This document shows, in pieces, positions 28,524-53,728 of a DNA stretch of 64,000 nucleotides. Position 1 is the stretch's first letter, and each line of letters opens with the position of its first letter. The notes below the pieces were generated by a model. The model was not told the origin of the DNA, did not search any database, and saw only the letters and a list, made by a program, of their open reading frames with translations. Both the position numbers and the translations under genes were made by a program. The DNA is from Bdellovibrio sp. NC01 (GTDB lineage: Bacteria > Bdellovibrionota > Bdellovibrionia > Bdellovibrionales > Bdellovibrionaceae): positions 3,906,001 through 3,970,000 of the forward strand of contig NZ_CP030034.1 of the NCBI RefSeq assembly GCF_006874625.1. Direction: 5' to 3'.

Positions 28524-31067
28524 ATGGGTAGATTTCATCTGGGACGTCGGGGGCAAGGTACACTACTGATTGTATCGGTATTGTGTGTAGTGGGAGTCAT
28601 TGTATTGATGACCTCACTCGACGTATTCACGAAAGACTACAATTATAAATCCATCGATTTCGATCAGGTTTTGTTAGATGAAGCGACAAGCTCTTCATTC
28701 GCCGTGATGGAATCAGCATTATCTCGTCGCTTGTGGGAACCACCTCCCGATAGCAATTGTTTAAAAGCTGAAACATTTAGTGTTGATGGTAGTCTTCCTA
28801 ACGGCATCACTTGGAAAGTTGATACGACTTTCAATTTCACCACTAAAAATTTTGAAATGACGGCGACGGGAAAATATCGTCGTTTAACTTCGACGTTTAA
28901 AAAGCGTGTGAAGGTTTTGGATGTGTCGGATTATCTGTTGTTTTCCGGTAGTGATGACGAGGTTGTTTTGGGTCGAAATTATGATCCGACAACTCCGGCT
29001 GCTTTGATTGCCAAAGACCGCAGGATTTATACACAAGGTCCATTGCAAGCATATGGAATGGTTCCACGTGCAAATCCCAACACCGACTGGAGTGGTTCAA
29101 CCTCAGTCTTCCCTGGCGAATGGGGAACGATCATTCAAGGCGATCGCATGCAGTTCGGTGGTGGTCTTTACTATCGTTCTTATGCGGTTCCGCAACCCAA
29201 TCCATCAAATGCAACACTCTTAGGTTTGTTATCACCTTATTCCAACGCTTGGGGCACTCCACAGAAGACCCTGTCTTCCTTTGGTGGAGGTTCAATGGTG
29301 ATCACGAAGGACTCATCCGTCGCGGAAACTTTGCGTGATCAAGTTATTAATGGTTCTGGCACTCCAAACACCAAAGCGTCATTAAAAAATCAGGTCTATC
29401 CAGTTGCTTTATTTGGGGGAAATCCTCCCCTTGAATCATGGAATGCGTCTGACAGTGGAAACTATTTTAACGACGTCGATAGATATTCCATATTCTATTA
29501 TAACTATGCTGGTGCTAATAATTTCGGAATTCGCATTAATGCCACTTGCATGTCGAAACCCGATGCATTCGATGCAAAAAAATATTGTTCTCATTCAGAA
29601 CATTTTCCCAAAGGTTTCAAGCAATGGCGTAAAGACGCAGGACTTGATGGATATCTTTACACTTCGGATTCAGAAGTTGTTCCTTCACCTTCGATGAACT
29701 GGGACAATCTTGAGGCTCTCGAAGACGATGCTAAACTCTGTGGGCAAGTTATCAGTACCCCTGTTTCCGCATACGAAGACTGCGCAATTTGGGATAACAA
29801 CTTCTTGCAAAGTTATGCCGGAAATTCTTCAACTGCGTGTGCGAAGATTTCGCGTTTGGATATGGAAAGTTTATCTTTAAACAACTTCAATCCATCGCAA
29901 CTAACTGATGCGTCGCTAAGTGATCGTCTTTTACGTCGAGTTGTTTACACGAAAGTTCCAACAGAAATTAAACAATCCAACAACGCCGGCTTAATGGTCA
30001 GTGCGCTTTCAAACAATGCTGCCCGCCAGAAGTTTGCATTGTGGATTGTTGGGGAAGACACGATTTCTTTGCGTGGTGCACAGGCCGATACGACATCACC
30101 ACTTGATACTGATCCGGGCCGCCTGCGCGAAGTGGTTTTTAATAAAGATTCTACTGGCGCGAACAAACCAGGCATTTCAATGGTGTTGTTATCACCAGAA
30201 CAGGTTCATCTGTTAAGTCCGTTCTATGTTCCGATGGATCAGACTTATATGAATCAGCGCTGGCCTTCATCTGGTGGTAAGATTAAACCGATTATTCATA
30301 ATCTTACTGATCCTCGCTATGAAGAAGATGGCTTTAAATATGGCTATCGTCGTTTCTATTTAAATAATATCAGTCTAATTACGACCGCAAAAACGAATGT
30401 CAGTGCGCCGTTTGTGATGCAAGGTTTATGGTCAGGGCCCGATTCGGGTGCCGAACAATTTATTGCCAACGGTTGTATGGTTTCGACATCTGGCCAACCC
30501 GTGACTGCAGTTGCTCCAAGTAGCGTGACTGACTACGCGCAAGCTGGATATAGAGGCGGAACATCGCCGCTTCCCGCAGCTGGCTCTAAATACTACAACG
30601 GCAGTGAACTTCCTCTTCGTTTTTATCCGAATGTATTCTGGAAACAAATGAGTGTGCTAGGCCCCGAACGACAAGAATCGGATTTGCTCCTTACAGGAAT
30701 TCGTATCTATGTAAACTTCGATGCGACAGTCATTCCAGGGAAACGTGATTTAACGACGCCACTGCATGCCGCCGCAGAATCAAGATATCAAAACCCTGCG
30801 TTCTTCGATATTTCACATAAGCATTTCACTTACGACCGCGGCGTTTACTATAAACCTAAACCCGCTTTCACGCCGTGTATTCAAGCGAACGCTGAATACA
30901 TTGTGCCAGCAAGTGCTTCAGAAACGACGGCACCTTACGCGGTAAATCCATCTGTGAATAATGGTCGTTACGTATTCGTACAAACATCACCTGATTCAAG
31001 TTATCGCAACATCGGTTCCATCGTCGGCGTTGATCAACCTGTGATCGAGACAAGGAATACGAAGTGA
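28524..31067 (+). CDS. Large PilX-like minor pilin, pilus-associated surface protein
   Basis: An 847-aa protein starting with a short basic leader ending in RRGQG and a hydrophobic helix (TLLIVSVLCVVGVIVLM), as in PilX/GspK-like pilins whose +5 residue is not Glu. The remainder is a very large exported domain with several Cys, no recognised family, and a beta-rich, low-homology composition. Two proteins with classic prepilin signals overlap its 3' end (GTGA junction at 31064), so it is part of a minor-pilin operon. Typical PilX proteins are about 150-250 aa, so this length is exceptional. A pilus-tip or adhesive role is inference. ATG 28524 has no clear Shine-Dalgarno. Confidence 0.72.
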   Translation: MGRFHLGRRGQGTLLIVSVLCVVGVIVLMTSLDVFTKDYNYKSIDFDQVLLDEATSSSFAVMESALSRRLWEPPPDSNCLKAETFSVDGSLPNGITWKVDTTFNFTTKNFEMTATGKYRRLTSTFKKRVKVLDVSDYLLFSGSDDEVVLGRNYDPTTPAALIAKDRRIYTQGPLQAYGMVPRANPNTDWSGSTSVFPGEWGTIIQGDRMQFGGGLYYRSYAVPQPNPSNATLLGLLSPYSNAWGTPQKTLSSFGGGSMVITKDSSVAETLRDQVINGSGTPNTKASLKNQVYPVALFGGNPPLESWNASDSGNYFNDVDRYSIFYYNYAGANNFGIRINATCMSKPDAFDAKKYCSHSEHFPKGFKQWRKDAGLDGYLYTSDSEVVPSPSMNWDNLEALEDDAKLCGQVISTPVSAYEDCAIWDNNFLQSYAGNSSTACAKISRLDMESLSLNNFNPSQLTDASLSDRLLRRVVYTKVPTEIKQSNNAGLMVSALSNNAARQKFALWIVGEDTISLRGAQADTTSPLDTDPGRLREVVFNKDSTGANKPGISMVLLSPEQVHLLSPFYVPMDQTYMNQRWPSSGGKIKPIIHNLTDPRYEEDGFKYGYRRFYLNNISLITTAKTNVSAPFVMQGLWSGPDSGAEQFIANGCMVSTSGQPVTAVAPSSVTDYAQAGYRGGTSPLPAAGSKYYNGSELPLRFYPNVFWKQMSVLGPERQESDLLLTGIRIYVNFDATVIPGKRDLTTPLHAAAESRYQNPAFFDISHKHFTYDRGVYYKPKPAFTPCIQANAEYIVPASASETTAPYAVNPSVNNGRYVFVQTSPDSSYRNIGSIVGVDQPVIETRNTK

Positions 31068-48428: not shown

Positions 48429-50042
48429 TTAAAGAGGTTGAATCGTAACGACACCATCGTGAGACTGAATTTTCATCAACTCCGAAAGTAAGACGCTCAT
48501 GCGATCATAGGTGTCGATATCCAATCCTTTCCACAACTGAACTTTCTTCACTCGTTCCGCAGTTGCTTCGTGGGTCACAAAACCTTTGCGAATTTTAAGT
48601 TGGTAGTGCGTCTGTGGATCTTCTTCATCAATTTTGAAATCGATATTGGAATTTAGAATTTTAGTTAGTTCTTTCGCTCTCAAATAAGCTCGTCCCGCGC
48701 GAACAAAGTGACGTTCAAACTTATCAGCAATATCTTCTGCCGTAAGAATGATGTCCTCTTCCTCTTCTTCACTCGAAGAGTTCGCGTCTTCAAATTCCGC
48801 CAACAGTACCAATTTATCCGAAGAAGTCTCTTCGGATTCAATCTCTTCTTCCAATTCTTCTTCAACAAACTTTTCTTGGCGATCCCACCAGATGCCTAAA
48901 GCCAGGATTGAACGAACCGACGTAAATGTGTATGGCTCCAAGCCATGACGTTCGCAGAATAAGGCAAAGCCTTCTTTCACTAAGTCTGCATCAATCGGTT
49001 CAAAGAAGATGTTGTCGTGGAATTCTGCTGATGCCAAACAATCCGCAAGATTACGAACCGAATCGAACACCATCGCGCTTGAAAATGGTCCCACGCAGAA
49101 TTCTTCGTCTTGTTCAAAACTCAGATTGCTGAAATCGCGATTGAAAAACACAATTCCACGCGCGCCAACTTTTAAACTGATGTTGTAGCGCGGATCAAGA
49201 CGTTTGATTTCGTCCGTCTCTAACAATGCCGCCTCAAGAGGGCTACCGCACACTGTAACTTGCAAATCATAAACTTGCGTGAGCATTTCAAGTTTGCGCG
49301 GATCACGATTTTTCTGTCCACGGAAATAACTATTCACGCGAGACTTCAGAGAAGTCGCTTTGCCGACGTACAGAATTTCATTCCATTTACTAACCATACG
49401 ATACACGCCTGGTTGATCAGGTAATTCTAAACGCTTTTCTTTGGGTAAAGGATATTCGTACTTTGTGCGCTTCGCTTTCGGAGTATCCTGCATCCACACC
49501 GATAGATCATCAAAAGTATGAATGCCCTTTTCAGCCAGGGCACCGACAAGCCCTTTCCAAATCACACGCGTCGCCTCCACTTGATGTGCGGAACGTTTTA
49601 AATCACCAGACGGTAATCCAAAATATCCAGCCAAGCCTTTAATTCCACGGGTCGGAAGATTCGGTAGCAAGCGTTTCGCAATTTCGTGAGTACACAAAAT
49701 CGGAAAAGGCATTTCTCGTTGAAGCTTTTCATAAGCATCAGCCAAAAATGGTTTTTCAAATTGCGCAAAGTGAATCACACAGTGATGGTCTTTATATTTT
49801 TCTTCGATGTTCCCAAATAAATGTTCGGCGGAAAGAGCCGTATCAAGATCTTCAGTGAAGATCCCAGTGATCATCTGAATGCGGTAAGGAACTTTTTCGC
49901 CTTCAGGCAAAGCCACGATTGAACTTTCAATCTCGCTGTCCAAAGTCGACCACGCCATCTCTAAGATATGCGCGCCACTTTCAGGCTTAGCGCCCGTTGT
50001 CTGAAGATCAAGAAAGAATAAAGGAAGTTCATTAAGCTTCAT
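48429..50042 (-). CDS. DEDDh exonuclease-fold plus UvrC-like GIY-YIG nuclease
   Basis: A 537-aa two-domain protein. Residues 5-165 have the DnaQ/PolC-type exonuclease fold (LFFLDLQTTGAK, VIHFAQFEKPFL, SAHQVEATRV), but several catalytic acids are changed: Glu14 is Gln, motif II Asp is Glu96 and the motif III Asp is Thr158; Asp12 and His153 remain. Residues 208-290 are an apparently intact GIY-YIG domain of the UvrC/Cho type: PGVY214, LY225VGK228A, R235, E270, E275, PRYN287. The rest is of unknown fold with an acidic stretch (about 400-435). Its start overlaps the upstream helicase 3' end by 11 bp. Related exonuclease/UvrC fusions exist in other bacteria; function of this one is not determined. 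Confidence 0.88.
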   Translation of the reverse strand: MKLNELPLFFLDLQTTGAKPESGAHILEMAWSTLDSEIESSIVALPEGEKVPYRIQMITGIFTEDLDTALSAEHLFGNIEEKYKDHHCVIHFAQFEKPFLADAYEKLQREMPFPILCTHEIAKRLLPNLPTRGIKGLAGYFGLPSGDLKRSAHQVEATRVIWKGLVGALAEKGIHTFDDLSVWMQDTPKAKRTKYEYPLPKEKRLELPDQPGVYRMVSKWNEILYVGKATSLKSRVNSYFRGQKNRDPRKLEMLTQVYDLQVTVCGSPLEAALLETDEIKRLDPRYNISLKVGARGIVFFNRDFSNLSFEQDEEFCVGPFSSAMVFDSVRNLADCLASAEFHDNIFFEPIDADLVKEGFALFCERHGLEPYTFTSVRSILALGIWWDRQEKFVEEELEEEIESEETSSDKLVLLAEFEDANSSSEEEEEDIILTAEDIADKFERHFVRAGRAYLRAKELTKILNSNIDFKIDEEDPQTHYQLKIRKGFVTHEATAERVKKVQLWKGLDIDTYDRMSVLLSELMKIQSHDGVVTIQPL

Positions 50043-52464
50043 TGATTACTTCCTCCTTAGCGGGCTTCATGGCCTCGATGCTTTTCCAGAAATCAGTAAC
50101 ATCAGAAATAATTTTTTGCGAGACTAATTCTTGCGGAGACGTTTCAAACCAACCCTGCGGCATCGTCTCTGAATAAGTGCTTTCCAGGAAGCGAGAATCC
50201 ATCAAAACAATCAGACCCTTATCATTTTCAGAGCGAATCACACGCCCTGCTGACTGAATCGTTTTTGCCATTGCTGGATAAACATACGTGTAATTGAAGG
50301 CCACATTTTTTTCGTTCTTCTTTTCAAAGTATTCGCGAATTTTCTCACGTTCGAAATCGAAAGTCGGCAAAGCCGGCCCAATAACAAATGCGCCAATCAA
50401 CATATCCCCAGGGAAATCCACACCCTCAGAGAAAACTCCGCCCTGCACCGCTAACAACAACGTTGGTAGATCGTTGTTCTTCATGAACGATAAAAAGTCT
50501 TCCACTCGCTGCGCTTTCATATCCCGTTGTTGCACTAAGCGCTGATAGAAACTTTCACGTAGATGCTTTTCTACATCCTTCATAAATTCAAAACTAGGAA
50601 AGAGGGCAATATAGTTACCCGGCTTCACCGCCATGATCTTTTCCATAGCCTGCGCAATCTTCGGCGCACTAGAAGCACGTTCACGATATTTTGTAGAGAT
50701 CTGCGGAATTAAAATGATTTTGCGATGCTCACGCGGAAACGGCGATACAAACTCTAAACACTGCGTTTCTTCCTCTGGCAAACCCAGCAACTTCGAAGAA
50801 AACTCGAAAGGCTTCAGTGTCGCAGAAAAAGCCACGACATTCTTAAAAGACTTATAGACTTCATGCAAGTGTGCTGAAGCATCACAACAAGTCACCTTCA
50901 GTGTTTCGTTCTCTTCACCGAACATGCGACCGCGCTGATAGGTTTGAAAGAACTCTTCCCCACGCAGCTCAAGCGCTAAGGCAAAGTCTGACCAAGTGTT
51001 TACCAAACGCAAAATGCCATCTTGATTTTGTATCTCAACATCCGCTTCAAGATATTCAGATAAAAAATCACGCAGACGCTTTTCTAAATCAAAGATCGGA
51101 TCAAAATCAATTTCCACAATACGCGATTCACCACGATATTCTTCAATCAAGGTTTGTGCTTCTTTGCAAAACTCAAGCGCACGCTTGTAAAACTGTGGTG
51201 CCACCTTTTTCAACGAATCTTCTAAATTACGCAATTCACGCGTCGATAAGGACGGTGAAAAATAATCCTGCGCACGTGAAGGCAAGTTATGGGCTTCATC
51301 AATCACAAGATTGGCTTTTTCCGAAGGTTCCAATAAAGGCTCACTCAACCGACCCACTAGGCTTCGCGTAGAAAACACATAGTTATAGTCGGCAATCACA
51401 ACATCGGCACGCTCGATAGCTTCAACAGAAAGTTCGAAGGGACAAACTTGATATTCCTCACCCAGCTCCCGTAATTTTTTCTGACTTAAAGAGCGAAGTT
51501 TAGAAACCTTATTAACAAGGTCATTTTCCGCAACCTTCTTATAATAATCCTTCGCAAATTCGCAGTACTGCGGATTACACAAAGGTTCATTCTTAAAACA
51601 CATCTTACTTTTTGCGGTAATTGTTAAAGGACGAACATTCGCACCCAATTCCTGCAAGCGTTCAACCGCTTCTTCCGCCACTTGATGTTGGGAATTCTTA
51701 GGCGTGACATAAATCACCTTCTGTCCACGCGCCAAAGACTCTTTCAACGAAGGATAAAGCACGCCAATTGTTTTTCCTAATCCCGTCGGCGCTTGAATTA
51801 ACATCCGCTTTTCAGAAGTAAAACCTTCTTCAATAGCAGCGATGAGTTCTGTCTGCCCAGGGCGCGGCGATGAAAATGGAAATTGTAGGTCGCCAGAGAT
51901 CTCAACGCGTTTTTTGAAGAGCTTTTCGCGCATCTTTGTTTCTTCAACAAGTTCCGCTAAACGTAACGCCATCCATGCTTCGTACTCTTCGATATCAAGA
52001 TCAAAATACATCTCTGACATCTTGAAGTTGCGCGACGACACCAAAAGCATTTTCAAATCCGGAATTTCCCCGGTTTGTTTATAATAAATGTAACCGTAAG
52101 TGCGCAGCTGCCACACGTAAGGATGATTTTCATCTGTCGCAAGCTTGCGTTCTAATGATTCAATATCGAATGCTGATTTGATTTCTTCGATCTGACAAGA
52201 ATGGCCTTCGACCACACCATCGGCGCGACCTGAAACCACAAAGATGTATTGCTCACGTGTGAATTCCATCTTCAACGGCTTTTCCGCTGTGTAACCCGGA
52301 ACTTCACGAATGCGTTTACGTTGAATGTTTTGATGAATCTCGACACCCAATTGCGGTAACTGACCATAACCAGAATTTGCTTCGATCGAACCCACGCGCG
52401 GACATGGCAGCGCAAACTGACGAATATCAAGGTGAACTTTTCTGGTTGCGGTTTTCTTTGCCAT
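50032..52464 (-). CDS. RecB-like nuclease domain fused to XPD/DinG-like Fe-S helicase
   Basis: An 810-aa fusion. Residues about 20-175 carry a PD-(D/E)XK nuclease of the RecB/Cas4 class: H44, D82 in SGRADGVVEG, E94 and K96 in EEIK, and the QxxxY motif (Q119-Y123). From about 195 begins an XPD/DinG-family superfamily 2 helicase: Walker A APTGLGKT (225-232), four Fe-S cluster Cys (C289, C296, C301, C341), DEAH box (389-392) and motif VI IQSAGRVIRS. The start is one base from the radical SAM gene stop. The combination suggests a 5'-3' DNA helicase with associated nuclease acting in repair, replication or defence; the exact role is not known. Confidence 0.9.
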   Translation of the reverse strand: MAKKTATRKVHLDIRQFALPCPRVGSIEANSGYGQLPQLGVEIHQNIQRKRIREVPGYTAEKPLKMEFTREQYIFVVSGRADGVVEGHSCQIEEIKSAFDIESLERKLATDENHPYVWQLRTYGYIYYKQTGEIPDLKMLLVSSRNFKMSEMYFDLDIEEYEAWMALRLAELVEETKMREKLFKKRVEISGDLQFPFSSPRPGQTELIAAIEEGFTSEKRMLIQAPTGLGKTIGVLYPSLKESLARGQKVIYVTPKNSQHQVAEEAVERLQELGANVRPLTITAKSKMCFKNEPLCNPQYCEFAKDYYKKVAENDLVNKVSKLRSLSQKKLRELGEEYQVCPFELSVEAIERADVVIADYNYVFSTRSLVGRLSEPLLEPSEKANLVIDEAHNLPSRAQDYFSPSLSTRELRNLEDSLKKVAPQFYKRALEFCKEAQTLIEEYRGESRIVEIDFDPIFDLEKRLRDFLSEYLEADVEIQNQDGILRLVNTWSDFALALELRGEEFFQTYQRGRMFGEENETLKVTCCDASAHLHEVYKSFKNVVAFSATLKPFEFSSKLLGLPEEETQCLEFVSPFPREHRKIILIPQISTKYRERASSAPKIAQAMEKIMAVKPGNYIALFPSFEFMKDVEKHLRESFYQRLVQQRDMKAQRVEDFLSFMKNNDLPTLLLAVQGGVFSEGVDFPGDMLIGAFVIGPALPTFDFEREKIREYFEKKNEKNVAFNYTYVYPAMAKTIQSAGRVIRSENDKGLIVLMDSRFLESTYSETMPQGWFETSPQELVSQKIISDVTDFWKSIEAMKPAKEEVINEA

Positions 52465-53544
52465 CTATTCGTCGATCTTAAAACTCAATTGGTCACCCGG
52501 TCGCTGAAAATGCTCAGCGCTAAGAGTGAATTTCTTTTCATTTAATCCATATTTACGAGTGTAGACATCAAAGACCTGTGCCAACTGATCCGCACGCGGC
52601 CCTTGTCCACGCATGCGCGAACCAAAATTAGCGTCGTTCATCTTGCCGCCACGAATATCTTTAACCGCGTTCACGACTTTATCTTTACGCAGCGGACGAT
52701 GCACTTCCAACCATTCTTCAAATAATGGCGCCACCGCCAACGGCAATCGCAACGGAGTGTAACCAGCTGAATACGCACCGGCGTCACGAGCCGCCTTCAA
52801 AATCGCAGGCATTTCATGATCCGTTAAACCCAAAATCACCGGCGCAACATTCACACCCACTGGCACACCCGCATTGGCTAGCATCTCAATCGCTTTTAAA
52901 CGAGCTGCGGGACGCGAAGTGCGCGGCTCTAATACCTGAATGAGGTCGTCATCCAAACTTGTTATAGAGATGAATACGCGAATGCCATTGTAAGCCGCCA
53001 TCTCTTTCAAAACATCAAGATCACGCGTAACAAGAAAGTTTTTAGTAATAATCGCACCAGGATTTTTAAATTTCGCAAGCACCTGCAAACAGCCACGTGT
53101 CAGTTCCATCTTGCGCTCAAGTGGCTGATAGCAATCCGTGATGCCACTCATGACAATAGTTTCCGGCTGCCATGACTTTTTCATCAATGCTTCTTCAAGC
53201 AACTTCGGCGCTTCTTCTTTCACGAAAATTTTTGATTCAAAATCAAGACCTGCGGAAAATCCAAGATACTCATGCGTGGGACGCGCATAACAATAAATGC
53301 AACCATGCTCGCACCCACGATATGGATTCACCGAGTACGTAAAACCAATATCCGGCGAATCGTTCTTCGTTAAAACAGAACGAGACGTGTCCTTCAAAAT
53401 TTGCGTTTGAAGGCGCGGCTTTTCTTCTTCTAAATAATTATCGAAATCCTGTGGCTCGGCTTCGTACTTGAGAGAATCGAATCGATTGGGAATATTACTG
53501 CTAGCGCCTCGGCCTCGGATGTCTTTGCGAAATTCGCGACTCAT
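52465..53544 (-). CDS. PA0069-family radical SAM protein (SplB-related)
   Basis: A 359-aa radical SAM enzyme: cluster motif C78-EHG-C82-IY-C85 in NPYRGCEHGCIYCYAR, then SGITDCYQPLE, TKNFLVTRDL and SITSLDDDL segments. The sequence resembles the PA0069 subfamily related to spore photoproduct lyase, whose substrate is unknown. No spore genes are present, so a spore photoproduct role is unlikely. It is the first gene of the operon with the helicase and GIY-YIG genes; its ATG lacks a Shine-Dalgarno, so the mRNA may be leaderless. Confidence 0.9.
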   Translation of the reverse strand: MSREFRKDIRGRGASSNIPNRFDSLKYEAEPQDFDNYLEEEKPRLQTQILKDTSRSVLTKNDSPDIGFTYSVNPYRGCEHGCIYCYARPTHEYLGFSAGLDFESKIFVKEEAPKLLEEALMKKSWQPETIVMSGITDCYQPLERKMELTRGCLQVLAKFKNPGAIITKNFLVTRDLDVLKEMAAYNGIRVFISITSLDDDLIQVLEPRTSRPAARLKAIEMLANAGVPVGVNVAPVILGLTDHEMPAILKAARDAGAYSAGYTPLRLPLAVAPLFEEWLEVHRPLRKDKVVNAVKDIRGGKMNDANFGSRMRGQGPRADQLAQVFDVYTRKYGLNEKKFTLSAEHFQRPGDQLSFKIDE

Positions 53545-53652: not shown

Positions 53653-53670
53653 AGCGACTTCAGAAAATAA

Positions 53671-53701
53671 AAAAGCCCAAGTCGTTAAACTTGAGCTTTT
53701 C
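53671..53701 (-). terminator. Terminator of the atp operon
   Basis: On minus: AAAAGCTCAAGT (53701-53690), 6-nt loop, ACTTGGGCTTTTT (53683-53671), one mismatch, with a T-run. It lies about 28 nt after the atpC stop. Confidence 0.8.
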
Positions 53702-53728
53702 TTAGAAATCATTTGATTGGTTCCAAAA

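Follow-up and report, generated by a model that had tools for sequence, protein, structure and literature searches.

Bacterial excision repair is thought to run mainly via UvrABC. Among DinG-like helicases, EndoDinG is a named subgroup defined from the DinG protein of Bdellovibrio bacteriovorus HD100; its nuclease domain resembles the RecE, EXO5 and DNA2 folds, and endonuclease activity of the B. bacteriovorus protein is quoted there as unpublished data (PMC11981726). ExoDinG, represented by Staphylococcus aureus DinG (PDB 8zef), resembles the gene pair described below in bringing together a DnaQ-like exonuclease fold and a DinG-type helicase, here as a fusion; its DEDDh exonuclease is active (PMC12345164), and it has neither a GIY-YIG nor a PD-(D/E)XK domain. 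CasDinG of type IV-A CRISPR shares the DinG-type helicase core, with cas partners and a vestigial Fe-S domain (PMC10450177). The combination of an exonuclease with a UvrC-type GIY-YIG nuclease is known as Cho+Exo or Cho-like+Exo, for which a role in excision repair has been proposed (PMC1564403), and is annotated in PRK07883 as 'DEDD exonuclease domain-containing'. Finally, a ligase-associated cluster (TIGR04120–TIGR04123) comprises a ligase, an Lhr helicase, a beta-CASP/MBL exonuclease and PdeM.

Here we describe a locus of Bdellovibrio sp. NC01 in which an EndoDinG lies beside a GIY-YIG protein whose N-terminal part has an exonuclease fold. GIY-YIG, UvrC and partner exchange are not mentioned in the description of EndoDinG (PMC11981726). 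Each class of component is already known, and what appears to be new at the level of sequence is the alteration of the DEDDh motifs in every partner linked to the helicase. No account of the pairing, of partner exchange, of repair islands on plasmids or of the changed exonuclease motifs was found in the literature searched (largely outside subscription journals).

Organisation of the locus

The source genome is a single contig of 3.98 Mb, from which a stretch of 64,000 nucleotides (the window) was analysed. Three minus-strand genes are placed there with ATP synthase genes and a glycoside-hydrolase-like gene as their immediate flanks: a PA0069-family radical SAM gene (52465–53544; 359 aa, CxxxCxxC present), an EndoDinG helicase-nuclease gene (50032–52464; 810 aa) and a GIY-YIG partner gene (48429–50042; 537 aa). 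The open reading frames and both junctions match those given in the initial annotation. The TAG stop of the radical SAM gene touches the helicase ATG (GAATAG/ATGGCA), while the 3' end of the helicase gene overlaps the GIY-YIG start by 11 bp (50032–50042, minus strand), with an AAGGAGG Shine-Dalgarno sequence for the GIY-YIG start lying inside the 3' end of the helicase gene. Translational coupling of helicase and GIY-YIG protein through this overlap is likely. In the gap between atpC and the three-gene group, a strong terminator-like hairpin with a 15-pair stem and a T-run (53669–53702, read from 53702 to 53669 on the minus strand) probably bounds the transcription unit on its upstream side. 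No LexA-type box (TTACN3GTAA type) was found upstream of the operon, and the sole exact site of this type (30935–30945) falls within a coding region; SOS control of the unit was rejected for want of such a box ahead of the operon.

The helicase-nuclease

The reading of the middle gene as a RecB/Cas4-type nuclease joined to an XPD/DinG-like Fe-S helicase proved correct. An N-terminal PD-(D/E)XK domain precedes the helicase, DEAD_2 and Helicase_C_2 score above their Pfam cut-offs, and PDB 9kqh aligns to the protein over its full length, including the N-terminal nuclease region. Comparison of 20 diverse homologues showed no variation in H44, E61, D82, E94 and K96 of the nuclease, in the Fe-S cysteines C289/C296/C301/C341 or in the helicase motifs GKT (230–232), DE.H (389–392) and Q737/R741/R744. 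The protein thus has the features by which EndoDinG is recognised, namely a PD-(D/E)XK domain with H, E, D, E and K and an SF2 core with a CCCC Fe-S motif, and shares its domain order with HD100 DinG and the homologue in PDB 9kqh (PMC11981726). Its four invariant cysteines and repair-type partner set it apart from CasDinG.

The window helicase shares 61–81% identity with proteins encoded in Bdellovibrio MAGs and in genomes of the same genus, and no second Helicase_C_2 protein was found in the source genome. Its distribution is patchy, with a strong match in 34 of 144 genomes of the phylum. Lokiarchaeota MAGs (L103, L105, L112) also encode EndoDinG-type helicases, at about 30% identity and with neither of the partners described below adjacent. 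EndoDinG-like proteins of about 30% identity and near full length occur as well in records labelled as Enterococcus and Listeria phages and in faecal phage contigs (OR846587.1, OR848115.1 and others), some of which may be host sequence.

The GIY-YIG partner

The third gene had been read as an exonuclease fold plus a UvrC-like GIY-YIG domain, in agreement with our matches: a DnaQ/PolC-type exonuclease fold is followed by a UvrC/Cho-type GIY-YIG domain and then by a C-terminal domain, and both RNase_T and GIY-YIG were detected by Pfam in 16/16 partner members. The partner model matched DnaQ/PolC exonucleases with VIA Z up to 22, and the UvrC N-terminal domain too, the match of the full-length model being dominated by the exonuclease domain. 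Profile comparison places the GIY-YIG domain nearest to UvrC (1yd6, 105 bits). Its residues Y225, K228, R235, Y239, E275 and N287, which we take to be the catalytic Tyr, Lys, Arg, Glu and Asn residues of UvrC, are invariant in the partner subfamily (A2).

The partner shares with Cho+Exo and PRK07883 proteins the order of an exonuclease fold and a UvrC-type GIY-YIG domain, and differs from them in its altered DEDDh motifs, the lack of a UVR domain, a C-terminal domain of its own and its place beside EndoDinG. It stayed below every PRK07883 cut-off, the best model giving 165.6 bits against 495, and TIGR00194 (UvrC) scored 83.5 bits against a cut-off of 285. Among the 16 members, no Pfam match was found for UVR/UvrB-binding, RNase H-like (EndoV) or HhH domains, nor was there a conserved Cys-rich linker. 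The C-terminal domain, predicted alone with a pLDDT of 77.5, gave no PDB match below E 0.6 in Foldseek; this null does not show a new fold, because the C-terminal domain of Cho may have no solved structure.

In every helicase-linked partner, Gln replaces the catalytic Glu of exonuclease motif I (D-x-Q), motif II reads FE, not FD, and the catalytic His-x4-Asp of motif III is missing. Profile alignments to PolC and to S. aureus DinG place these changes in the same columns, and L145, an unlinked member of the partner subfamily, has the same altered motifs. By contrast, the phylum also has Exo-GIY paralogues that are not beside the helicase, and in seven of seven the motifs are intact (D-[IV]-E-T-T-G / HN..FD / HRA..D). 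These paralogues (L141–L144 and L146–L148, from family f14 genomes; 430–481 aa) are of true Cho+Exo type. We infer that the exonuclease domain of the partner works without canonical two-metal catalysis, different chemistry being possible. Since the DEDDh motifs are altered in the linked copies and intact in the unlinked paralogues, this domain probably serves for docking or for binding DNA, and nuclease activity would reside in GIY-YIG. That the exonuclease motifs are consistently lost makes for a specific biochemical prediction, contrary to the current 'DEDD exonuclease' annotation.

Conservation of the gene pair

Conservation was assessed in 144 genomes of the phylum and in a genome scan with 80 loci from many phyla. 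Each of the 13 genus genomes that carry the helicase has the GIY-YIG gene directly downstream of the helicase gene. In total, 23 non-duplicate adjacent pairs, all on the same strand, come from Bdellovibrionota (Bdellovibrio, Bacteriovorax), Melainabacteria/Obscuribacterales, Cyanobacteriota-labelled MAGs, Legionellaceae and a WOR-3 MAG; the WOR-3 helicase belongs to a clade that is only ~31% identical. The helicase gene comes first in 21 of these pairs and the partner gene in two; gaps range from -134 to +33 bp with mechanically called ORF starts, most pairs overlapping or lying a few bases apart. No fusion of the two genes was seen among the loci examined, and in one genome (G102) they are on separate contigs.

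Within the 144 genomes, the partner subfamily was found solely where the helicase is present (17/17 genomes, p = 4.5e-13; 5/5 genera, p = 2.4e-4), p-values in which shared ancestry is not fully corrected, 13 of the 17 genomes being of one genus. Divergence of helicase and partner is correlated (rho 0.82), which may reflect just co-transfer and shared ancestry. On the helicase tree, the GIY partner must have been gained or lost at least six times (10 partner changes in total versus 33 in shuffles), so the association would appear either to have arisen repeatedly or to be ancient and often lost. The helicase-bearing Geobacteraceae and Firmicutes genomes that were checked carry neither the GIY partner nor the alternate partner described below, so the helicase can work without them.

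The radical SAM gene behaves differently. Its assignment to the PA0069 type was borne out (NF033668, rSAM_PA0069, 478.5 bits; cut-off 360), whereas the proposed kinship to spore photoproduct lyase came down to a weak superfamily score (TIGR04070, 20.4 bits versus a cut-off of 400; TIGR03886, 18.1 versus 437; Pfam SPL, 19.9 versus 27), and its identification as such a lyase was rejected. A literature search for the function of PA0069 found nothing. In the 13 helicase-bearing genomes of the genus, the gene is adjacent to the helicase in seven, distant in two (G048, G069) and absent from four (G130, G118, G065, G073); it is tightly spaced to the helicase in relatives L033, L034 and L036, and was beside it in none of the 80 cross-phylum loci. 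Co-occurrence of the two genes reaches p = 2e-5 at genome level, driven by one genus, versus p = 0.07 by genus and 0.08 outside the home genus. Membership of the radical SAM protein in the core module was rejected on these neighbourhood and co-occurrence data, and it is best treated as a clade-restricted neighbour, a passenger of this operon. The initial annotation had suggested that the three genes may form a lesion-processing unit with the radical SAM enzyme acting on a damaged base; a three-gene unit with that enzyme as its core is left unsupported by partial adjacency in the genus, absence from the cross-phylum loci and a genus-level association that is not significant. A neighbourhood conserved beyond this strain was found for helicase and GIY-YIG protein, in several phyla, but not for the radical SAM gene. 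The conserved unit is two genes, EndoDinG and GIY-YIG, not three.

An alternate partner and plasmid repair islands

A gene for a TIGR04122 beta-CASP/MBL exonuclease lies directly upstream of the helicase gene in a further 12 genomes of Bdellovibrionota and in one Elusimicrobia MAG, so that this exonuclease fills the same neighbour slot. One of the 12 Bdellovibrionota copies is frameshifted (G124:C40:35161-35616, in a draft genome), by decay or assembly error. Either the GIY partner or the TIGR04122 exonuclease is encoded in 32 of 34 helicase-positive genomes versus 3 of 110 helicase-negative ones. Three Obscuribacterales genomes with the helicase and no GIY partner have the TIGR04122 exonuclease elsewhere in the genome. 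Two Obscuribacterales open frames that contain TIGR04122, of 956 aa (G146:C2:44300) and 907 aa (G150:C15:112100), are possibly exonuclease-ligase fusions; such fusions have reportedly been seen in Opitutus.

TIGR04122 belongs to the ligase-associated cluster together with TIGR04120, the 'cisplatin damage response ligase'. The source genome, whose window module has GIY-YIG in this slot, keeps the full cluster separately, with PdeM, Lhr-type helicase, ligase and exonuclease in overlapping order (G000:C1:1352589-1358259; L140:2590-8260), and also encodes an orthodox UvrC; the pair is therefore additional to both. Because the cluster of the interchangeable partner is annotated as a cisplatin damage response, the substrate may be crosslinks or damage that blocks replication, and it is for this reason that crosslinks are favoured. 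Crosslink specificity is drawn from how the alternate partner is named and which genes accompany it, and general fork or branch processing would fit as well.

The pair is also present on three Legionella plasmids (NZ_CP025493.2, NZ_CP045304.1 and NZ_CP071529.1; L149–L151), where its genes overlap by 8 bp and lie within a repair island; two of these plasmids are typed as conjugative. The island genes, combined across the three plasmids and not all present on each, encode Ku, LigD, UdgX, UmuD/UmuDC, Y-family polymerases, DinB and an SOS response-associated peptidase. In L. saoudiensis, Ku and a Y-family polymerase flank the pair. CTGT-N8-ACAG boxes occur in the Legionella islands at chance level, with no enrichment. 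Of all the observations, this Legionella context bears most strongly on function, and it favours repair over defence.

Discussion

Taken together, these comparisons indicate that the EndoDinG and GIY-YIG pair is most likely a DNA-repair unit. In more specific terms, we lean, by a small margin, towards a two-protein repair machine that would make UvrAB-independent incisions at blocked or crosslinked DNA. The make-up of the pair, its gene coupling, its conserved residues and its surroundings are established from the sequences, whereas the interaction, the substrate or lesion and the order of cuts are inferred. On this model, the helicase would load on blocked, crosslinked or branched DNA, move 5'-3' and open it, and the pseudo-exonuclease and C-terminal domains would hold the GIY-YIG nuclease against the helicase or the junction it has opened. 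The GIY-YIG domain would then nick one strand while the PD-(D/E)XK domain of the helicase cuts or trims another, the outcome being dual incision or lesion unhooking without UvrA or UvrB; gap filling and ligation would follow by other enzymes.

SLX1 is a GIY-YIG branch nuclease, and by analogy with DNA2 or RTEL1 acting with SLX1 the pair might instead process forks or recombination intermediates, cutting branches and trimming flaps without being specific for any lesion. The RecE/EXO5/DNA2-like fold of the EndoDinG nuclease is in keeping with this, as is the Y-family polymerase and Ku/LigD context, which also fits fork collapse, whereas the cisplatin damage response annotation of the alternate partner's cluster argues for lesions; we regard fork processing as a real though lesser contender. 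It is unlikely that the GIY-YIG protein is an alternative Cho-like 3'-incision nuclease for UvrAB repair, the helicase being separate and merely co-expressed. Such a role would accord with the closeness of its GIY-YIG domain to UvrC and Cho, with the orthodox UvrC in the same genome and with the excision repair proposed for Cho+Exo fusions (PMC1564403). Yet a UVR/UvrB-binding domain occurs in 0/16 members and a conserved Cys-rich linker is absent, the partner is confined within the phylum to helicase-bearing genomes, and the exonuclease that the Cho+Exo model requires has lost its motifs in the partner subfamily.

The initial annotation had left open whether the module serves DNA repair or defence. 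The repair half stands, with a pair conserved across phyla and repair genes around it in Legionella, and little speaks for the other half. In a defence system, the helicase-nuclease pair would degrade invading phage or plasmid DNA, like CasDinG or other nuclease-helicase systems, and the helicase does score 403 bits against PADLOC typeIV_DinG (PDLC01439), a broad, associated-gene model, besides being patchily distributed and plasmid-borne in Legionella. Csf4 (TIGR03117), however, scored 36.5 bits against a cut-off of 400, the window locus adjoins the ATP synthase operon, the Legionella plasmid neighbours are repair genes and not defence genes, and the alternate partner is a DNA-damage-response exonuclease; we consider defence improbable. 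Less probable again is a three-gene lesion-repair unit whose radical SAM enzyme would reverse the damage to a base or modify the damaged base, for although the stop/start abutment, the tight spacing in relatives and the genome-level co-occurrence would suit it, the gene's scattered presence within the genus, its absence from cross-phylum loci, the genus-level p-values and the spore photoproduct lyase scores far below cut-off all tell against it.

Under the favoured reading as a UvrAB-independent incision machine, a broader proposal can be made, more tentatively and at somewhat less than even chance: that EndoDinG is the platform of an undescribed UvrAB-independent system, exchanging its second nuclease between lineages (GIY-YIG with a pseudo-exonuclease adaptor, or beta-CASP/MBL) and travelling on conjugative plasmids in a portable repair island. 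If true, a helicase and GIY-YIG unit with a recurrent slot for a second nuclease would constitute a separate bacterial route beside UvrABC, one whose logic recalls the use of XPD with a nuclease in eukaryotic excision and crosslink repair, and EndoDinG would gain concrete partners and testable predictions for its role.
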